The notes under the pieces are model-generated. The model saw only the letters and a list, made by a program, of their open reading frames with translations, made no database searches and was not told the origin of the DNA. Shown here piece after piece: positions 37,201 to 54,539 of a DNA stretch of 64,000 nucleotides. Within the stretch, counting starts at the first letter, position 1, and each line of letters opens with the position of its first letter. The translations under genes and the position numbers were made by a program. The stretch is taken from contig NZ_JAGSOH010000015.1 in NCBI RefSeq assembly GCF_018139625.1, forward strand, positions 1 through 64,000, given 5' to 3'. The stretch comes from Actinospica acidithermotolerans. Lineage in GTDB: Bacteria; Actinomycetota; Actinomycetes; Streptomycetales; Catenulisporaceae.

Positions 37201-40200
37201 CTACGCGGACTGGGGCGCGCCCTCCGAGCTCGCGTGCATGAAGCTGTTCCACAGCCGCGCGTAGGCGCCTTCGGCGGCGAGCAGGTCGTCGTGCGTGCCG
37301 TCCTCGACGATGAGGCCGCCGTCGAGCACGAGGATGCGGTCGGCGCGGGCGGCGGTGGTGAGCCGGTGCGCGACGACGAGGGTCGTGCGGGATCGGGACA
37401 CCTCGTCCATGGCGCGCGTGACGGCGGCCTCGCTGGCGAGGTCGAGGGCCGCGGTGGCCTCGTCGAGCAGCAGGATGTCCGGGTCCACGAGGTAGGCCCG
37501 GGCCAGCGCGAGCAGCTGCCGCTGACCGGCCGACAGGCTCCGCCCGCGCTCGCCGACCTGGTGCAGGTAGCCGCCGGAAAGCTTGGCGACCATCTCGTGC
37601 GCGCCGACGGCCCGGGCCGCGGCCTCGATCTCGGCGTCGGACGCGCCGGGCCGGCCGTAGGCGATGGCCTCGGCGACCGTGCCCGGGAACAGGTACGCCT
37701 CCTGCGGGACGACGCCGAGCCGTCCGCGGTACTCGCTGAGGTCGTAATCGCGCAGGTCGACGCCGTCGACCAGCACCGCGCCCGAGGTCGGGTCGTAGTA
37801 CCGGGCGACCATCTTGACCATGGTGGACTTGCCCGCGCCGGTCTCGCCGACCAGGGCCACGGTCGTGCCCGGGTCGATCACGACGTTGACGCCCGCCGCG
37901 TCCTCGCCGCGGCCGCCGAGCGCCGGGTTCGCGCTGGTCGTGTAGCCGAAGCGCAGGTCCCTGAACTCGATCAGCCCGGTCAGCCCGGTCACCGGCGCCG
38001 GCTTCTCGCGCTCCGGCGTGTTCGTGCGCGTACGCAGCAGGTCGGTGATCCGGCGCAGGCCGACGGCCGCCTGCTGGTAGCTGTCGAACACCTGCGAGAG
38101 GTTCTGCACCGGCGCGAAGAACATGTCCACGTACAGCAGGTACGCGATCAGCGCGCCCGCCGTCATCGAACCCTGATGGATCAGGTGGGCGCCGTAGACG
38201 ATCGCGAACGCGGCGGTCAGGTCCGCCAGCAGCTGCACGAACGGGAAGTACGTGGCGATGTACTTCTGCGCCCTGAGCCGGGAGACGCGGTAGGCGTCGG
38301 TCTTGCCCGCGTAGCGCGTGCGGTTGACGCCCTCGCGGCGGAAGGCCTGGGTCACCCGCATGCCCGCGACGTTCTCCTGGAGGTCCGCGTTCACGGCGCT
38401 GATCCGGTCGCGCGCCTCGCTGTAGGCCTTCGAGGAGCGCCGCTTGAAGATCACCGTGGCCACGATCAGGATCGGGATCACCGCGAAGACCACCAGCGAC
38501 ATCCGCCAGTTCACCACGATCAGCGCGCCGGCGATGCCGAAGAACGTCAGGATCGAGACGACCGTGGTGGACACGCCGTTCTGCAGGAACGTGGAGAGCG
38601 CGTCGATGTCCGAGGTCATCCGGGTCATCAGCCGCCCGGCCATCTCCTTCTCGTAGAAGTCGAGGCCGAGGCGCTGCAGGTGCGCGAAGGCCTTGAGCCG
38701 CAGCGTGTAGAGCAGCCGCTCGCCCATCCGGCCGGTGACCATCGTCTGGATCGCCTCGACGACCCAGTCCGCGAGCACGAGGCAGAATCCGACGATCGCC
38801 ATCGCGGCGATGACGTGGTACGCCGCGCCCTGGATGCCCTCGTCGACGCCGGTGCGGATCAGGGCCGGGATCGCCAGCGAGGCGAGCGCGTCGGCGCTCT
38901 CCAGGAGCAGGCCGAAGACGAGCACGACGAGGAAGGGCCGCAGCAGACGCTTGAGCGAGAACGCGTAGTCGGGCGCGGTGACGGCGGCCTTGTCCAGATC
39001 AGGCTTGTCGTTGGCCGGCGGCAGCGCCGCGACCTTGGCGAGCAGCTCCGGTGTGGCCGGGAGCGCGGCGATCATGTTGCGGCCGCCGCCACCTCCGCCG
39101 CCTCCGCCGCCCTGCGGCACGCGGTTGGCCGCTGCTGCCGCCGCCTGCGCCGATTCGCTGTACTGCGGGAGCTTCGAGTGGTCCCACAGCGCCGGGGTGA
39201 CGCCGTCGACCTGCACCATCGCGTTGTCGACCGGCAGTTCGCCGGCGTCCACGCCCTCGGCGTCGTCGCCCGGGCCGGACAGCAGCAGCCGGTAGAGCGG
39301 GCAGTCGCGCTCGAGCTCCTCGGCCGTGCCGACGGCGACCAGGCGGCCGTGGTCCAGTACCGCGATCCGGTCGGCGAGCTGCAGGGTGGAGCGGCGGTGG
39401 GCGATCAGGAGGGTCGTGCGGTTCTCCATCACGCGGTGCAGCGTCGCGTGTATCTCGGCCTCGGTGGCGGCGTCCACGGCCGAGGTCGCATCGTCCAGCA
39501 GCAGGATCTGCGGGTCGGTGATCAGCGCTCGGGCGAGGGCGACCCGCTGGCGCTGGCCGCCGGAGAGGGTGAGGCCCTGCTCGCCGACGACCGTGTCGTA
39601 GCCGTCCGGCAGCTCCTCGATGAAGCGGTCGGCCTCGGCGGCCCGCGCGGCGGCGCGGACCTGCTCGTCGGTGGCGTTCGGCGCGCCGTAGGCGATGTTC
39701 GCGCGCACGGAGTCGGAGAAGAGGAACGCCTCCTCCATGACCAGCCCGATCGACGCGCGCACCGACTCGGTCGTCACGTCGCGCAGGTCCTGGCCGCCGA
39801 TGCGCACGCCGCCGCCCTGTGGGTCGTAGAAGCGCGGCAGCAGCATGGCGAGCGTGGACTTGCCGGAACCCGAGGTGCCGATCACCGCCATCGTCTCGCC
39901 GTGCCGCACGCTCAGGTCCAGGCCGTGCAGCACCGGCTCGGAGGCGAGGTAGCCGAAGGTCACGTCGCGGAACTCGACGTCCAGCGCCTCGTGCGGGATC
40001 GAGCCCGCGCCGGGCCTGTCCTGGATGTCGGGCTTCGAATCGATGACCTCGAACACGCGGATGGCGCTGGCGCGGACCTGCTGGCCGAAGGTGATCAGCG
40101 TGGTGAGCATCCGGACCGGGCCGACGAACGCGGCCAGGTAGCTGGAGAAGGCGAAGAAGGTGCCGATGGTGATCTGGCCGTTCAGCGCCATCCAGCCGCC

Positions 40201-40998
40201 GAGCGCCAGGATGCCGATCTGGCCGAGCGTCGGGATCGCGCCGAGCGTCGGGTTGTAGCGCGCCGTCAGCCGCACCTGCCGCATCCGCGCGGCGAACAGC
40301 GTGCTCGCGGCACGGTCGAGCTTGTCGACCTCCTGCCGCTCCTGGCCGAACCCCTTGACCACGCGCACGCCGGTGACGGCTGACTCGACCACGCCGGCCA
40401 GCGCGCCGGTCTTCTGCTGCGAGTCCCACGTCGCCGGGAACAGCTTGCGCCGGGCCAGGATGTTCACCGCCAGCAGCCCCGGGCCGACGGCGAGGCCGAC
40501 CAGCGTGAGCGCCGGGGACAGAAAGAGCATCGCGACGATCGAGCTGAAGAACATCAGGATCGTGCCGGCCATCATCGGGGCCATGCCGATCAGCTGGGAC
40601 ACCATGTTGATGTCGGAGGAGGAGCGGGAGACGATCTGCCCGGTCTCCAGGTTGTCCTGGCCGCGCCCGTCGAGCCGGGAGAGCGAGTCGAAGACCTCCG
40701 TGCGCAGGTCGTTCTGCACCTCGATGCCGATGGAGCCGCCGAGGTAGCGCCGGGTGCGCGAGACGACGAAGTTGAGCAGCGCGATGCCGATCAGCGCGAT
40801 CGCCCAGGGCAGCACCGGGCCCTTGCCGCTGATGATCACGCTGTCGATGATGCTGCGCTGGACCAGCGGCACCACGACGCCGATGCCGGCGATCGCGACC
40901 GAGCTGGCCGAGGCGATCAGCACGATCTTCTTGTAACGCCAGATGTATCCGACCAGTCTCCGCAGCCAGGCGTCCTCGCTCTTCACCTTCGCGACCAC
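37201..40998 (-). CDS. Fused double ABC exporter (TMD-NBD-TMD-NBD) with one degenerate site
   Basis: 1265 aa, two type IV (MsbA-like) half-transporters in one chain. Half 1 spans ~1-600: TMD, Walker A GTSGSGKST (K380), signature LSGGQ, Walker B ILLLDDATSAVD with Asp503 in place of the catalytic Glu. A linker with ten glycines (~640) follows. Half 2 spans ~690-1265: TMD, Walker A GETGAGKST (K1057), altered signature LSAGQ, Walker B ILLLDEATAALD (E1180). This is the asymmetric pattern of heterodimeric exporters such as TM287/288 or BmrCD. The start is GTG 40998 with AAGGGGG upstream. It diverges from a condensation-fold gene. Substrate unknown, probably lipid or drug-like. Confidence 0.95.
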   Translation of the reverse strand: MVAKVKSEDAWLRRLVGYIWRYKKIVLIASASSVAIAGIGVVVPLVQRSIIDSVIISGKGPVLPWAIALIGIALLNFVVSRTRRYLGGSIGIEVQNDLRTEVFDSLSRLDGRGQDNLETGQIVSRSSSDINMVSQLIGMAPMMAGTILMFFSSIVAMLFLSPALTLVGLAVGPGLLAVNILARRKLFPATWDSQQKTGALAGVVESAVTGVRVVKGFGQERQEVDKLDRAASTLFAARMRQVRLTARYNPTLGAIPTLGQIGILALGGWMALNGQITIGTFFAFSSYLAAFVGPVRMLTTLITFGQQVRASAIRVFEVIDSKPDIQDRPGAGSIPHEALDVEFRDVTFGYLASEPVLHGLDLSVRHGETMAVIGTSGSGKSTLAMLLPRFYDPQGGGVRIGGQDLRDVTTESVRASIGLVMEEAFLFSDSVRANIAYGAPNATDEQVRAAARAAEADRFIEELPDGYDTVVGEQGLTLSGGQRQRVALARALITDPQILLLDDATSAVDAATEAEIHATLHRVMENRTTLLIAHRRSTLQLADRIAVLDHGRLVAVGTAEELERDCPLYRLLLSGPGDDAEGVDAGELPVDNAMVQVDGVTPALWDHSKLPQYSESAQAAAAAANRVPQGGGGGGGGGGRNMIAALPATPELLAKVAALPPANDKPDLDKAAVTAPDYAFSLKRLLRPFLVVLVFGLLLESADALASLAIPALIRTGVDEGIQGAAYHVIAAMAIVGFCLVLADWVVEAIQTMVTGRMGERLLYTLRLKAFAHLQRLGLDFYEKEMAGRLMTRMTSDIDALSTFLQNGVSTTVVSILTFFGIAGALIVVNWRMSLVVFAVIPILIVATVIFKRRSSKAYSEARDRISAVNADLQENVAGMRVTQAFRREGVNRTRYAGKTDAYRVSRLRAQKYIATYFPFVQLLADLTAAFAIVYGAHLIHQGSMTAGALIAYLLYVDMFFAPVQNLSQVFDSYQQAAVGLRRITDLLRTRTNTPEREKPAPVTGLTGLIEFRDLRFGYTTSANPALGGRGEDAAGVNVVIDPGTTVALVGETGAGKSTMVKMVARYYDPTSGAVLVDGVDLRDYDLSEYRGRLGVVPQEAYLFPGTVAEAIAYGRPGASDAEIEAAARAVGAHEMVAKLSGGYLHQVGERGRSLSAGQRQLLALARAYLVDPDILLLDEATAALDLASEAAVTRAMDEVSRSRTTLVVAHRLTTAARADRILVLDGGLIVEDGTHDDLLAAEGAYARLWNSFMHASSEGAPQSA

Positions 40999-41079
40999 GG
41001 CGCCCCCTTCAGGTTCGGTTAATGCAGGCTCAGCATAAGTGAGACTACCTCATCAACGCCACTCGTTTGTCCCGCCGGA

Positions 41080-41131: not shown

Positions 41132-42343
41132 GTGCACACCGAAGCATGCTCCGCGGTCGACGAGATCAACCTGCTCTCCGAACGTCCCGAGGAGCCGAAC
41201 CTGCACTACGTCGAGGCGGCCCTGACCGGCAAGCTGGAGATGCCGCGGCTGCGCGAGGCGGTCGCCGCGGTGCTCGAGGCGCACCCCGCCGCCCGCGCCA
41301 GGATCGCCACCTCGTCACCCATGCGGCTGTGGACGCAGTGGGCCGTGCCCGGCATCGCGGAGACCGATCCGGTCCAGGACCGCGCCGCCGGCGGCCGCAC
41401 CGACCTGACCGAGGCGCGCGAGGAGATATTCGCCACCGCGCTACCCGTGCGCACCGGGCCGCTGTTCCGCCTGCACGTGCTGCGCCAGCCGCGGGTGACG
41501 AACCTCATCCTGGCGGCCCACGCCGCCCGCTTCGACGCGTACTCCGCGCTCGGCCTGCTGCGCGCCATCGCCTCGGCGTACACCGGCGGCAAGGCCTCGG
41601 CCCCGCCGCACGACCAGGCGCCGCTGCTGCGCGGCAACTCCCGTCCGCCGCGCATCCAGGGCCCGCCGCTGCGCATCGAGCCCGGCCGCACCCCCCAGGA
41701 CGCCAAGGCGCCGAAGAGCGGCTACCACTTCCGCCATGTCGCCATGGACATGCGCGACCTGTCGAACGCCATCTCCTACTACGCCGACGCCTCGATCGAG
41801 GACGCCCTGCTGGCCGAGGTCGCGCGCGCCGTCTACGAGTGGAACGCCTCGAAGGGCAAAGGCTGGGGCCAGATCAGGGTCATGATGCCGATCGACCGCA
41901 GGTCCGTGATGGACGAGACCCTGCAGATGGGCAACCTGGCCGCGTACGGCACCGTCGCCCTCGACCTCGCGGACATCGCCCAGAACCCGCTGCCCGCCGT
42001 CTCCGCGCAGACCAAGTGGCTGCGCAGGAACGCGGTGGAGCTCGACGGCGTGGCCCGCACCTTCGCCGAGCCCTGGGCCCCCTACGGCATCCGCAGGGCC
42101 CTGAAGATCCCCGTCGACCGCCGCACCGCCTCCCGCGTGCCCAGCACCATGCTCGCCAACCTCGGCGAGATCGACCAGCTCTGGTTCGGCGCCGTGCGCA
42201 CCGGCGCCGTCTGGTACGCCCCGCCGGCTCCGCTGCCGATGGGCCTGGCAGTCGGCGCGATCGCGTACAACCGCCGCATGCACCTGACGCTGCGGTACCG
42301 GAGGGCGATGTTCACGACGCCGCCGTTCTGGGGGCGCGGGTGA
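41132..42343 (+). CDS. Condensation/acyltransferase-fold protein lacking the catalytic His
   Basis: 403 aa. The overall layout is that of the BAHD/NRPS condensation superfamily: N-terminal VEAALTGKLEMPRLREAVAAVLEAHPAARARI, the HHxxxDG position, a central RHVAMDMRDL and a C-terminal SMGNL/AAYGTVALD-like floor loop (QMGNLAAYGTVALDLA). At the active-site motif the sequence is HAARFDA (H130 to A136), so the second, catalytic His is Ala and the Gly is Ala. The protein may bind or present an acyl substrate, or work by another mechanism. GTG 41132 has GGGA five bases upstream. It is divergent from the fused ABC exporter. Confidence 0.72.
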   Translation: MHTEACSAVDEINLLSERPEEPNLHYVEAALTGKLEMPRLREAVAAVLEAHPAARARIATSSPMRLWTQWAVPGIAETDPVQDRAAGGRTDLTEAREEIFATALPVRTGPLFRLHVLRQPRVTNLILAAHAARFDAYSALGLLRAIASAYTGGKASAPPHDQAPLLRGNSRPPRIQGPPLRIEPGRTPQDAKAPKSGYHFRHVAMDMRDLSNAISYYADASIEDALLAEVARAVYEWNASKGKGWGQIRVMMPIDRRSVMDETLQMGNLAAYGTVALDLADIAQNPLPAVSAQTKWLRRNAVELDGVARTFAEPWAPYGIRRALKIPVDRRTASRVPSTMLANLGEIDQLWFGAVRTGAVWYAPPAPLPMGLAVGAIAYNRRMHLTLRYRRAMFTTPPFWGRG

Positions 42344-42352
42344 GGTTCGCCC

Positions 42353-43099
42353 TCACAACCGCCGGTCGTTGGCCCACCTCGAGAGCTCGTACCTGTTCGA
42401 GAGCTGCAGCTTGCGCAGGACCGAGGAGACGTGCGTCTCGACGGTCTTGACCGAGATGACGAGCTCGCGGGCGATCTCCTTGTAGGCGTAGCCGCGTGCG
42501 ATCAGGCGGAGGACCTCGCGTTCGCGGGCGGTGAGGCGGTCTAGTTCCTCGTCCACGGAGGCGGCAGGGGCCGTGGTGGCGGGGGCCGCGCCGGAGAAGG
42601 CGTCCAGGACGAAGCCGGCCAGCTTCGGGGAGAACACGGCGTCGTTCTCGGCTACGCGCCTAAGCGCGTCGACGAGGTCGGTGCCGGAGATGGACTTCGT
42701 GACGTAGCCGCGGGCGCCGGCGCGGATGACGCCGATGACGTCCTCGGCGGCGTCGGAGACGGACAGGGCCAGGAACCGCGTGTCCGCCGCCTTGCCGGGG
42801 CCGCCGCCGGTGAGCAGGCATTGGCGCAGCACCTCGACGCCGCCGCCCCCGGGGAGGTGCACGTCCAGCAGCACCACGTCGGGCCGCCGCTCGACGATGA
42901 CGGCTACGGCGCTCGGCGCGTCGGCCGCCTCGCCGACGATCTCGACGGTGCCGCGGGCGGCCTCGTCCAGTTCCGCGCGCACGCCGGTGCGGAACAGCTT
43001 GTGGTCGTCGACCAGCACCACCCGGATCGGACGTGCGGTCGCGGCCGCGGCTGCCGCCACGACCGTGATCTCAGGACTCGACGACGCTTCGCTCTGCAC
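42353..43099 (-). CDS. LuxR-family response regulator of PspC kinase
   Basis: 248 aa. After a ~20-residue Ala-rich lead, the receiver domain has VLVDDHKLFR, phospho-Asp in DVVLLDVHLPGGG and Lys in YVTKSISG. The LuxR helix-turn-helix is LTAREREVLRLIARGYAYKEIARELVISVKTVETHVSSVLRKL. GTG 43099 lies inside the 3' end of the kinase gene (29-nt overlap), so the pair is translationally coupled. It probably controls envelope-stress genes, to judge from its PspC-bearing partner. Confidence 0.93.
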   Translation of the reverse strand: MQSEASSSPEITVVAAAAAATARPIRVVLVDDHKLFRTGVRAELDEAARGTVEIVGEAADAPSAVAVIVERRPDVVLLDVHLPGGGGVEVLRQCLLTGGGPGKAADTRFLALSVSDAAEDVIGVIRAGARGYVTKSISGTDLVDALRRVAENDAVFSPKLAGFVLDAFSGAAPATTAPAASVDEELDRLTAREREVLRLIARGYAYKEIARELVISVKTVETHVSSVLRKLQLSNRYELSRWANDRRL

Positions 43100-44342
43100 C
43101 GGTGGACCTTTCCTCGTTCACATCGTTGCCGTTGCCCGCACCGCCGGCGCCCGGCTGCGGCACGCGCTTGGCCGTCAGACGCACCTCGGTGCCCTCGCCG
43201 GGCCCCGTGCGGATCTCGGCCTGGCCGCCGTGCCGGCGCATGCGGCCGAGGATCGACTCGCGCACGCCCATCCGGTCCGGGGCCACGGCGTCCGGGTCGA
43301 AGCCGGGGCCGCGGTCCTTCACGAACACCTCGACGCGGTCCTCCGCGAGCTCCGCGTAAACCGAGATCGGCGCTTCGGGTGCGTACTTCGCCGCATTGAC
43401 CATAGCCTCCCGCGCGGCCGCGACGCACGCCTCCAGCTGCGCGTCGAGGGGCGCGTCGCCGACCGAGACGACGTCGAGGCGCGCCCCGTGGCGGTCTTCG
43501 ACCTCGGCGGCCGCCGCGCGAATCGCCTCGGCGAAGCTCTCCGTCGCGGACTTGCGGGCACCGTAGAGCCATTCGCGCAGCTCGCGCTCCTGGGCGCGGG
43601 CCAGCCTGGCCACCTGCGCGGGGTCTTCGTGGTGACGCTGGATCAGGGTCAGGGTGTGCAGGACGGAGTCGTGCATCATCGCCGCCACCTCCGCGCGCTC
43701 CTGGGAGCGTGCGCGCTCGGTGCGCTCGTGCGCGAGGTCCCGCAGAATCCTGAGGAAGAACGGCAGGCCGATCAGGCCCGCGCCGACGAGCAGCGCGAGT
43801 GCGGCCAGCAGGGTGCGGCCGGTCTCGGCCCAGCTGTTGTTGCCGTCGGCTAGCGCGATCATGCCGCCGATCGCCACGGCGGCGCCGAGGCCCGCGCGTG
43901 CGAGGTGCGTCGTGGAGCGGGTGCGGGTCCTCGGTCCCTCGCCTGCGCGCTGCGCGTCGTCCGCCTGGCGCCACAGGACGGCGAGCCCCAGGGCGACGGC
44001 GGCGAGCGGGAGGATCGTGCGCCAGTCGGTCGGGTGGGTCGTGGGTACGCCGAACAGCAGGAGCAGGCCCAGCGCGACCAGTCCCAGCAGGACGAGGCGC
44101 ACCTGGCTGCGCGGTTCGGAGCGCTCCTGCTCGGGCACGTCGCCGAGCGGCACGAATATCCAGAACGCGGCGTAGGCCAGTACGCCAAGGCCGCTGACCC
44201 AGGTGAAGATCGCGAAGAGCGCGCGCACCAGCCACACGTTCACGCCGAGGTGCAGCGAAAGCCCCCGGCAGATACCGCCCGCGAGCCGTCCCTTGCGGGA
44301 GCGGCGCAGCCGGCGGGTGTCCTCGGGCAGGGGCGGCGACAT
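43071..44342 (-). CDS. PspC-domain sensor histidine kinase
   Basis: 423 aa. An N-terminal PspC domain (~8-70, RLRRSRKGRLAGGICRGLSLHLGV) is followed by four further TM helices, a dimerisation segment with the phospho-His in AAMMHDSVLHTLTLIQRH, and an HATPase with REAMVNAAKYAP, DRGPGFDP and GEGTEVRL. The layout is common in actinomycetes and resembles LiaS-type systems. ATG 44342 is used; AGGGGG is only two bases away, so the start is moderately sure. It diverges from a second PspC gene with a shared 150-nt promoter region. Confidence 0.92.
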   Translation of the reverse strand: MSPPLPEDTRRLRRSRKGRLAGGICRGLSLHLGVNVWLVRALFAIFTWVSGLGVLAYAAFWIFVPLGDVPEQERSEPRSQVRLVLLGLVALGLLLLFGVPTTHPTDWRTILPLAAVALGLAVLWRQADDAQRAGEGPRTRTRSTTHLARAGLGAAVAIGGMIALADGNNSWAETGRTLLAALALLVGAGLIGLPFFLRILRDLAHERTERARSQERAEVAAMMHDSVLHTLTLIQRHHEDPAQVARLARAQERELREWLYGARKSATESFAEAIRAAAAEVEDRHGARLDVVSVGDAPLDAQLEACVAAAREAMVNAAKYAPEAPISVYAELAEDRVEVFVKDRGPGFDPDAVAPDRMGVRESILGRMRRHGGQAEIRTGPGEGTEVRLTAKRVPQPGAGGAGNGNDVNEERSTGAERSVVES

Positions 44343-44491
44343 CACCCCCTCATCGTCACACGTCCGCTCGCCGCCGGGCATCGGGGATTGACCCGGACCC
44401 GTACCCTGAGAGCGCGGGCGGCGGAATCCAGGGTGCGATCAGGGCGCTGCCCGATGGTGCCGAGCGCCCCCGATCCAGAATCCTGGACACC

Positions 44492-45748
44492 ATGAGCGAA
44501 GAGACGACGAGAGGCCACGCCACGCGTGGCCCGCTGCGCCGGGACCGGCGCTCGAAGGTCATCGCGGGAGTGTGCGGGGGGCTCGGCCGTCATCTGGACA
44601 TCGACCCCGTCGTCTTCCGCATCCTGTTCGCGGTGCTCTCCTTCGTCGGGGGCATCGGCCTGCTGGCGTACGCAGCCGCATGGCTGTTCGTGGCGCAGGA
44701 CGGCACCGACCGCTCGATCGTGCACCGGCTGCTGACGGGCAAGAATCCGCTGGTCGCCGTGCTGGCCACGGTCGGGCTGGTGCTGGGCGCGCTGATCTCG
44801 GCCCGGGCGCTGTTCAACGGCGTGTCGAACCTGTGGCCGATGTTCATGCTGGCGGCCGCGGTCGCCGCGGTGCTGATCTGGCGCGGCGACCTCAAGCTCG
44901 GCCGCGGCGAGAGCACGCGCGCCGTGCGGCAGCCGCCGACCTGGTGGCAGCAGCCGATGGAGGAATCGCAGGGCACGTCGACGGGCGGCGGGGAGCCGTC
45001 GGCCGCGCCCGGGTTCGCCACCGTCACGGGCGAGCCGCAGGACGCCCCGCCGCCCTTTCCCGGCGTCACGATGCCGACTGCCGCGGCGCCCGGGCGGGGG
45101 CGGCGGCGCGGCTACGGCGGACTGGTGCTCGCCAGCCTGCTCGCGGCGACCGGCGTGCTCGGCGTCCTGGACGCGGCCGGCCTGATCAGCCTCGGCTGGC
45201 TCTCCGGCGGCGCGCTGGTGCTGGTGCTGCTCGGCACGGGCATGGTGATCGGCGGCGTGTTCGGCAAGACGACCGCGCTGGTCCCGATCGGCCTCGTGGT
45301 GGCGATCCCGCTGATCGCGCTCGCCGCGATCGGGGTTCCGCTGCACGGGACGATCGGCGACGAGAACTGGGCGCCGCCCACCGCGTCCGCCGTGCAGCCC
45401 TCCTACCAGCTCGCGGTCGGCGACGGCACCCTGGACCTGTCCAACGTGACGCCGGGTGCCGGCAAGACGGTCGTCGTGACGGCGCAGGTCGGGGTCGGGC
45501 AGCTGGAGGTGACGGTGCCGGCGGACGTGACCGTGAAGGTCCGCAGCCACGCCGGAGCCGGCACGATCGCCGACCTCGACCAGCCGGGGCTGACCGACGG
45601 CCACGGCAGCTACGGCACGCGCCGGAACGACGGCGTGAACGTGGACAAGAACTTCACCGTGGCGTCGCAGGGCACGCCCCAGGGCACCATCGTGCTCGAC
45701 CTGAGGGTCGGCGTCGGTGCCATCCACATCCAGACGGAGGGACCGTGA
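44492..45748 (+). CDS. PspC-domain/LiaF-like membrane protein
   Basis: 418 aa. An N-terminal PspC domain (~17-75, RDRRSKVIAGVCGGLGRHLDID) precedes two TM helices and a Pro/Gly-rich linker (~150-200). Three more TM helices follow, then an extracellular beta-rich domain (~295-418) with LAVGDGTLDLSNVTPGAG and GVGQLEVTVPADVTVKV, like the C-terminal domain of LiaF/DUF2154 proteins. With the divergent PspC kinase and its regulator this gives a Lia-like set: sensor, regulator and accessory LiaF-like protein. The stop overlaps the next start (TGATG). Confidence 0.87.
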   Translation: MSEETTRGHATRGPLRRDRRSKVIAGVCGGLGRHLDIDPVVFRILFAVLSFVGGIGLLAYAAAWLFVAQDGTDRSIVHRLLTGKNPLVAVLATVGLVLGALISARALFNGVSNLWPMFMLAAAVAAVLIWRGDLKLGRGESTRAVRQPPTWWQQPMEESQGTSTGGGEPSAAPGFATVTGEPQDAPPPFPGVTMPTAAAPGRGRRRGYGGLVLASLLAATGVLGVLDAAGLISLGWLSGGALVLVLLGTGMVIGGVFGKTTALVPIGLVVAIPLIALAAIGVPLHGTIGDENWAPPTASAVQPSYQLAVGDGTLDLSNVTPGAGKTVVVTAQVGVGQLEVTVPADVTVKVRSHAGAGTIADLDQPGLTDGHGSYGTRRNDGVNVDKNFTVASQGTPQGTIVLDLRVGVGAIHIQTEGP

Positions 45749-49833: not shown

Positions 49834-50130
49834 CTAGCTCCAGGCCGCGGCGTTCGCGTTCTCGGTGGAGGTGTAGGCGTCGTGCGCGGCCTCGACGGCC
49901 TTGCCGATCGCCTGCAGCACCTGGTTGATGTCCGACTGGGCCTGGTCCCACTTGCGCTGCTGGACCTGGTAGTTCTCGGAGGCCTTACCCTGCCAGCTCG
50001 CGGCGATCGGGTTCAGCATCGACTTCAGGTCGTCCAGCTTCTGGTTCAGGTTGTTCGACGTCTGCTGGATGGTCTGCGCCGCGTTCGCCAGCTCGGCGAA
50101 CGTCACGAGCATCATTCCGTCTTGCGCCAT
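49834..50130 (-). CDS. WXG100 family protein (ESAT-6-like)
   Basis: 98 aa. Two helices are joined by the turn ASWQGKAS with the WxG motif at ~residues 45-47, the standard ESAT-6/CFP-10 hairpin. The C-terminus has Y-T-S-T-E, a YxxxD/E-type signal for type VII secretion. ATG 50130 follows GGGGAG by six bases. It is the second gene of a pair, 88 nt after the other WXG100 gene; the two products probably form a heterodimer. No EccC ATPase or other ESX gene is in the window. Confidence 0.93.
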   Translation of the reverse strand: MAQDGMMLVTFAELANAAQTIQQTSNNLNQKLDDLKSMLNPIAASWQGKASENYQVQQRKWDQAQSDINQVLQAIGKAVEAAHDAYTSTENANAAAWS

Positions 50131-50218: not shown

Positions 50219-50527
50219 TTACTGCAGGCCGCTGAGCAGCTTCGAGATCGAAGACTGGTTCTGCTCTTCCGTGGCCTGGTAGTTCTTGTTGTTCGAATCG
50301 ATGGCCTGGCCGATGGCGTCCAGAGCCTGGGTCAGCTTGGTGCCGTCGTCCTGGAAGCGCTGCATCAGCTGCTGGAAGGCCTGGTAGGCAGAGCCCTTCC
50401 AGGACGAGCCGAGCGGCTCGACGGCGCTCTGCAGGGAGCGCATCTCCGCCTGGATGTCCTGCACGGTCTGCTGGACGGCCTGAGCGGCCTTCGCCATATC
50501 GGCCGACGTAGTCGAAAAGCTAGACAT
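50219..50527 (-). CDS. WXG100 family protein (ESAT-6-like)
   Basis: 102 aa. The helix-turn-helix hairpin has SSWKGSAYQ as the WxG turn (~residues 42-44) and Y-Q-A-T-E near the end as a possible YxxxE secretion signal. ATG 50527 has AAGGTGG six bases upstream. It is the first gene of the WXG100 pair; the 287-nt gap before it holds no other gene and should carry the promoter. Confidence 0.93.
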   Translation of the reverse strand: MSSFSTTSADMAKAAQAVQQTVQDIQAEMRSLQSAVEPLGSSWKGSAYQAFQQLMQRFQDDGTKLTQALDAIGQAIDSNNKNYQATEEQNQSSISKLLSGLQ

Positions 50528-50814: not shown

Positions 50815-52476
50815 CTATCGGACTCGCAGCGTTTTGAGCACGCGCAGCGCCTTGCCGAGGACCTTCGTGTAGCGCGCCGCGTCCAGCCCCATCGAGGGCG
50901 CGATCGGCATCAGCGTCTGGCGCGCCACGGTCTGGATCTCGGTGTAGCGCCAGATGCCCTCGGAGCCGCTACGCCGCCCGACGCCGGAGTCGCCCATGCC
51001 GCCCGTGGCCGCCGCGACCGAGCCGAAGGCCGCCGCGTACGCCTCGTTCACGTTCACCATGCCGGAGTGCACGCGCAGCGCCGCCTCCTTGGCGCGCTTC
51101 GCGTCGCGGGTCCAGATCGACGAGCTCAGGCCGAACCGCGTGTCGTTGGCCGCCCCGAGCACCTCGGCCTCGTTCTCGAAGCGGTAGAGCGAGACGACCG
51201 GGCCGAAGGTCTCGTCCGCGTAGAGCGTCATGCCGGGGGCCACGTCGGTCAGCACGGTCGGCTCGTAGAACAGCGGGCCGACGTCCGGCCGGCGGCGGCC
51301 GCCGGCGAGCACGCGGGCGCCCTTGATCCGCGCGTCCTCGACCTGCTGGGTGACGGTCTCCAGCTGCTTCGTGTTGGTCAGCGAGCCGACGTCCGCGGCG
51401 AAGTCGAGGGTCGAGCCGAGCTTGAGCGCCTTGACCTCGGTGACGAAGCGGTCGACGAACCGGTCGTAGACCGCGTGGTGCACGTACATCCGCTCGATCG
51501 AGATGCACAGCTGGCCGGCCGAGGTGAAGCAGGCGCGGATCGCGCCGGCCACGGTCTTGTCGAGGTCGGCGTCCTCGAACACGATCATCGCGTTCTTGCC
51601 GCCGAGCTCCAGGGAGCAGCCGATCAGGCGACCGGCCGCCTGCTGCGCCACCTGCCGTCCGGTGCGGGTCGAGCCGGTGAACGCGACGTAGTCCGCGTGG
51701 TCGACCACGGCCGGGCCGGTGACCGGGCCGTCGCCGGTGACGACCTGCCACAGCTCGGCCGGCAGCCCGGCCTGGACGGCGAGCTGACGCAGGTAGAGGC
51801 CGCTGAGCACGGTCTGGTTGTCCGGCTTGTGCACGACGCCGTTGCCCGCGACCAGGGCGGGCAGGATGTCCATCGCGGCCAGCGCGAGCGGGTAGTTCCA
51901 CGGGGTGATCACCCCGACCACGCCCTTGGGATGCCGGTACTCGGTGACCCTGGTCAGGACCGGCAGCACGCCGATCTTGCGCCGCGGCCTGAGGTAGCCG
52001 CGCGCGGCGTGCGCGTAGTGCCGCGCGGTCGCCACCGAGACGCCGATCTCGTCGAACGCGTGCAGCCGGGTCTTGCCGGTCTCCACCTGGATCAGGCTCA
52101 GCAGGTGCTCGGAGTTGTCGAGCACCAGGTCGTGCAGCCGGCGCAGCACGGCGGCGCGCTCGCCCACCGGCCGCGCGGCCCAGGCGGCCTGCGCGGCGCG
52201 GGCCTTCTCGAAGGCGTGCCGCACGTCGCCGGGGCCGGACTGCGGCAGGTCCACGATCGTCTCGCCGGTCAGCGGCGCGACGATCTCCACCGACTGCGGG
52301 TTCGAGCCCACGGTCAGCTGGTCCACCAGCCGCGCCGTGAACTCGCGCGGCAGGTACGGGCGGATGGATTCGAGCCGCTCGGTCGGCCCGGTGGCCCGGG
52401 GGGCGGAGCCTTCGGCGGGCGCGGCCTGCGTCTGCTCGCCGGTCGCGGAAGCGTTCGTCGTGTCGCCTGCGGTCAT
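50815..52476 (-). CDS. gabD2: Succinate-semialdehyde dehydrogenase, GabD2-like
   Basis: 553 aa, slightly long because of a ~35-residue Ala/Thr-rich N-terminus. Aldehyde dehydrogenase motifs are TPWNYPLALAAMDILPAL, FTGSTRTGRQVAQ, LELGGKNAMIVFEDADL, the catalytic Cys in FTSAGQLCIS (C324) and ETFGPVVSLY. It is closest in look to actinobacterial SSADH/GabD2 enzymes, which feed succinate to the TCA cycle. ATG 52476 has no ribosome site; a -10 TAGTCT seven bases upstream suggests a leaderless transcript. Substrate is inferred from family. Confidence 0.88.
   Translation of the reverse strand: MTAGDTTNASATGEQTQAAPAEGSAPRATGPTERLESIRPYLPREFTARLVDQLTVGSNPQSVEIVAPLTGETIVDLPQSGPGDVRHAFEKARAAQAAWAARPVGERAAVLRRLHDLVLDNSEHLLSLIQVETGKTRLHAFDEIGVSVATARHYAHAARGYLRPRRKIGVLPVLTRVTEYRHPKGVVGVITPWNYPLALAAMDILPALVAGNGVVHKPDNQTVLSGLYLRQLAVQAGLPAELWQVVTGDGPVTGPAVVDHADYVAFTGSTRTGRQVAQQAAGRLIGCSLELGGKNAMIVFEDADLDKTVAGAIRACFTSAGQLCISIERMYVHHAVYDRFVDRFVTEVKALKLGSTLDFAADVGSLTNTKQLETVTQQVEDARIKGARVLAGGRRRPDVGPLFYEPTVLTDVAPGMTLYADETFGPVVSLYRFENEAEVLGAANDTRFGLSSSIWTRDAKRAKEAALRVHSGMVNVNEAYAAAFGSVAAATGGMGDSGVGRRSGSEGIWRYTEIQTVARQTLMPIAPSMGLDAARYTKVLGKALRVLKTLRVR

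Positions 52477-52592: not shown

Positions 52593-54539
<1,947 letters not shown>

Follow-up and report, generated by a model that had tools for sequence, protein, structure and literature searches.

Replacement of the catalytic His in a stand-alone condensation-superfamily protein of one Actinospica species: probably a recent loss of catalysis rather than a new type of system

The window, i.e. the whole stretch of 64,000 nucleotides analyzed here from a soil actinomycete, encodes a stand-alone condensation-superfamily protein of 403 aa (P0001; 41132..42343, plus strand; intact open frame with a GTG start) that carries Ala in place of the catalytic His of its active site. As far as the sequences tell, this is probably a recent loss in one species and no new kind of system. 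With moderate confidence, we take catalysis to have been lost or much weakened in the window species while the protein stayed under some constraint; its full-length frame under weakened purifying selection points to a lineage-specific pseudoenzyme or a very slow enzyme. The evidence behind this reading is as follows: i) of the 25 sequences read at the motif, 24 retain the His; ii) the orthologues within the genus have it; iii) the locus is syntenic among them; iv) constraint is weaker on the window branch.

At the HHxxxDG position (residues 130-136; 41519..41539, plus strand), the window protein reads HAARFDA, encoded by CAC GCC GCC CGC TTC GAC GCG: the second, catalytic His is replaced by Ala131 (41522-41524) and the Gly by Ala136, and the Asp is present as Asp135. 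Codons and alignments together confirmed what the initial annotation had proposed on this point, namely Ala for the catalytic His in a condensation-fold protein. The corresponding motifs in the same genus are HHARFDG in Actinospica durhamensis CSCA 57 and HHARFDA in a second species (G002); aligning the motif across orthologues, as had been suggested, thus left the window protein without the second His, but both genus orthologues with it. Outside the genus, 18 relatives from another genus of the same order (g4, which is probably Streptomyces) carry NHTALDG (16/18) or HHTALDG (2/18), and four relatives in family f20 (loci L119 to L122, spread over two genera) carry HHVALDG or HHLALDG. Across these 25 sequences (three genus members, 18 from g4 and four from f20; the count omits partial matches embedded in NRPSs), the Asp is invariant (25/25) and the window protein is the sole one to lack the second His. 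The alignment of relatives took nine of the 18 g4 proteins and left out one weak match (L123).

Frame, length and C-terminus are intact in the window gene, whose orthologues, likewise of 403 aa, are 73% and 72% identical to it; a frameshift at the 3' end was ruled out, as all three genus orthologues end in FTTPPFWGRG. As a single sequence, the window protein matched Pfam Condensation (PF00668) below the curated cut-off (E 5.9e-5), and only over residues 29-158 in the N-terminal half. A 16-row family profile that includes the window protein matched segments of both lobes in the condensation domains of the NRPS PvdL (E 9.4e-19), as well as the PapA5 structure 1q9j (E 3.5e-4); similarity to condensation domains over both lobes was therefore found with the family profile, but not with the single sequence. 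Searches of the PDB with the single window protein and with a three-row genus profile returned no match, and the structure predicted from a two-row alignment was unusable (mean pLDDT 34.7), so that the fold assignment rests on homology to the wider family. The claim that the rest of the condensation fold is kept stood with one exception: the last C-terminal helix region of the relatives is absent in all three genus members.

Compared with the condensation domains of NRPSs (PF00668; PvdL, tyrocidine synthetase), the window protein is alike in its both-lobe profile match, its HHxxxDG position and its Asp, but differs in that it stands alone with no carrier or adenylation domain, has its His replaced, lacks the last helix region and scores, as a single sequence, under the Pfam cut-off. 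It resembles PapA5-type acyltransferases (1q9j, NF006787) in free-standing size and weak profile similarity, whereas its score against the NCBIfam PapA5 model (E 0.0023; 16.9 bits) lies far under the cut-off of 396 bits, and PapA5 membership was rejected on this score. No part of the protein is strongly hydrophobic (the highest mean over 19 residues is 1.23), suggesting that it is probably cytoplasmic. A role in defence was dropped as PADLOC gave no match, and no relatives of the window protein were found in viral contigs.

The gene is indeed divergent from an exporter, as the initial annotation had stated: a fused double-half ABC exporter of 1265 aa (37201..40998, minus strand; two Pfam ABC_membrane and two ABC_tran domains, with MsbA-related NCBIfam matches) lies across a gap of 133 bp. 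On the other side are a LuxR-type response regulator (42353..43099, minus strand; Pfam Response_reg and GerE), a PspC-fused sensor histidine kinase (43071..44381, minus strand; PspC and HATPase_c) and a PspC / LiaF-C-terminal-like membrane protein (44492..45748, plus strand; PspC and LiaF-like_C), all three conserved in loci L031, L032 and L117. Exporter, gene, regulator, kinase and PspC protein are grouped in both other genus members, and each of the three genus genomes examined holds one orthologue of the window protein; the proposed check on synteny of the exporter-gene pair was thereby positive in 3/3 genus genomes. The regulator and the condensation-like gene are separated in G002 by an alpha/beta hydrolase and by a frame of 192 aa without an assigned family (L032:7688-9117), and the regulator-to-gene gap thus takes up extra genes. 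Elsewhere in the window, two adjacent WXG100 proteins (by Pfam; 49834-50130 and 50219-50527, minus strand) are candidates for type VII secretion, and a radical SAM protein with a Radical_SAM_N2 domain (52593-54539, minus strand) adjoins an aldehyde dehydrogenase frame (50815-52476).

The divergent promoter region contains a palindrome, TGAG-N5-CTCA (41040..41052), a putative operator with one match each in the window, L031, L032 and L117; its longer form GTGAGN5CTCAY occurs once in the window versus 0.25 expected. Since the palindrome always stands at the exporter promoter, including that of L117 where the condensation-like gene is absent, it would belong to the exporter and is probably its operator; the divergent condensation-like gene may share it. 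A promoter scan found none.

At the scale of the family, the exporter family was present in 14/14 genomes, while full-length relatives of the gene were present in 3/14 (the remaining matches were partial and mostly within very long frames), leaving the exporter without the gene in 11/14; an obligate gene-exporter unit was rejected on these counts. The sister genus G004 has the kinase-regulator-exporter row (exporter 71% by tblastn) without the condensation-like gene, and a search of the G004 genome with the genus profile gave no match to that gene anywhere. The sensor-kinase homologue at G004:C333:31006-32268 (L077) has one TGA inside the match, which could be a draft error or a two-frame match. 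Judged by this distribution, the pairing of gene and exporter is an arrangement at the level of the genus. Most simply, an existing kinase-regulator-exporter row would have received the gene in the genus ancestor; a loss in G004 would leave an identical pattern. The initial annotation had put this protein and the exporter forward as the best candidate in the window for an undescribed system, and a system built around a His-less protein was not supported: orthologues keep the His beside the same exporter, A. durhamensis doing so with a fully intact HHARFDG, which is the finding that the annotation itself had named as a refutation, and the sister genus has the exporter row without the gene.

The window branch had a Nei-Gojobori dN/dS of 0.46 (bootstrap 95% 0.34-0.64), versus 0.19 (0.13-0.26) for the sister pair. 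The ratio of the two was about 2.5 for this gene versus 0.7 to 1.7 for five neighbours, the largest rise of the six, with the exporter entering this comparison over only 242 codons. Since the stem of the two sisters is counted within the window branch, timing is uncertain. Where g4 is strongly conserved, the window protein alone deviates at 10 positions and alone agrees at five; 75 strongly conserved positions are common to g4 and the three genus members. On the other hand, the frame is intact, the relative-rate counts were only mildly uneven (14 vs 10 and 15 vs 10), and the 73% and 72% identities to the orthologues match the genome-wide amino-acid identities between species of 72.6% and 71.8% in the accessible part of PMC9308616 (taking the window species to be the one compared there), so the window protein is not unusually fast-evolving. 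Constraint on the window protein is weaker but present.

The g4 proteins are the nearest relatives outside the genus: their full-length similarity is about 30% identity (26-31%), covering residues 8-394 of the window protein with E down to 5.8e-28. They share conserved positions with the genus members, but differ in their motif (NHTALDG or HHTALDG), in about 30 additional C-terminal residues and in standing beside AftD and not beside the window exporter. A large membrane protein is encoded directly upstream of the relative in 17/18 g4 loci (the eighteenth starts at the contig end), with a glycosyltransferase-like gene further upstream in 16/18; in the two g4 loci scanned by Pfam, the large protein is an AftD-type arabinofuranosyltransferase, and a GT4 glycosyltransferase, a PorA-family protein and methyltransferases are encoded nearby. 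Loci L033-L050 show a conserved row of PorA-family protein, GT4, AftD-type arabinofuranosyltransferase and condensation-like protein, the last mostly with NHTALDG, and the AftD and condensation-like frames overlap by four bases in L035 and L043. The AftD-type gene beside these relatives suggests that the condensation-like family acylates an envelope glycan or lipid; against an envelope role, the argument rests on distant relatives, and AftD (PF11847) was found in 0/14 genomes of the window's family. A role linked to AftD in the window genus was dropped on the latter ground. None of the papers listed in a literature search dealt with the AftD-adjacent condensation-like family.

Loss of activity is weighed against an active window protein, which we consider unlikely yet worth keeping in mind. 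Here the His would be dispensable, either because Asp135 and the rest of the site position the substrate or because the acceptor is already nucleophilic. Retention of Asp135 and of most other strongly conserved family positions, the 75 common with g4 among them, agrees with such activity, as do condensation domains in which a mutated second His is tolerated and an HQxxxDM enzyme that occurs naturally, both described in the accessible part of a review (PMC11546977). According to the same part of this review, not every condensation domain loses its activity when the second His is mutated, which counts against lost activity in the window protein. However, every other sequence in the family sample (24 of 25) has the second His, and constraint is weaker on the window branch.

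By analogy with the X domain of glycopeptide NRPSs, the protein might instead have been repurposed to bind or partner the exporter or its substrate without catalysis, which we regard as quite unlikely. The X domain, as covered in the accessible part of PMC11546977, sets a precedent: its condensation fold has HRxxxDD at the motif, where the second His has been replaced, and it recruits P450s. An intact frame under purifying selection and a divergent promoter with a conserved palindrome would also fit a binder. Yet the X domain is embedded in NRPSs and its replacement is class-wide, whereas the window protein stands alone and is confined to one species, and its orthologues retain the His beside the same exporter; moreover, the exporter does without the gene in most family genomes and the structure model was too poor to use. 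Doubtful to a slightly greater degree is the fuller version, in which a condensation-fold acyltransferase of one Actinospica species would have given up catalysis to bind or sense as the partner of an ABC exporter under envelope-stress control, with HHARFDG, HHARFDA and HAARFDA as a part-way series. Finally, an assembly or base-calling error hiding a true HH is highly improbable: the genome is a draft of 422 contigs, but two adjacent base differences separate GCC (Ala131) from the CAC (His) of the G002 orthologue, so a single base-call error cannot explain Ala131, and ordinary divergence suffices, since Ala131 is one of 74 replacements unique to the window protein versus its two sisters.

Under the preferred reading, i.e. 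loss or strong weakening of catalysis in the window species, the ancestral protein would have been a stand-alone condensation-superfamily acyltransferase of actinomycetes, from a family that most likely transfers acyl groups in cell-envelope building. In the genus ancestor, an envelope-stress regulator pair and an ABC exporter would already have stood side by side when the gene came to lie between them, and their operator may serve the gene as well. In the window species, the change of the catalytic His to Ala would have been added to an already altered Gly, with activity presumably lost or much weakened. The full-length frame would since have been kept under weakened purifying selection, perhaps nearing loss or perhaps retained for binding of a substrate or partner.

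The AftD-adjacent acyltransferase-like family is little studied and makes a better target than the window locus. For the Actinospica protein itself, sister species offer a natural series, HHARFDG, HHARFDA and HAARFDA, that could help to gauge the importance of the second His.
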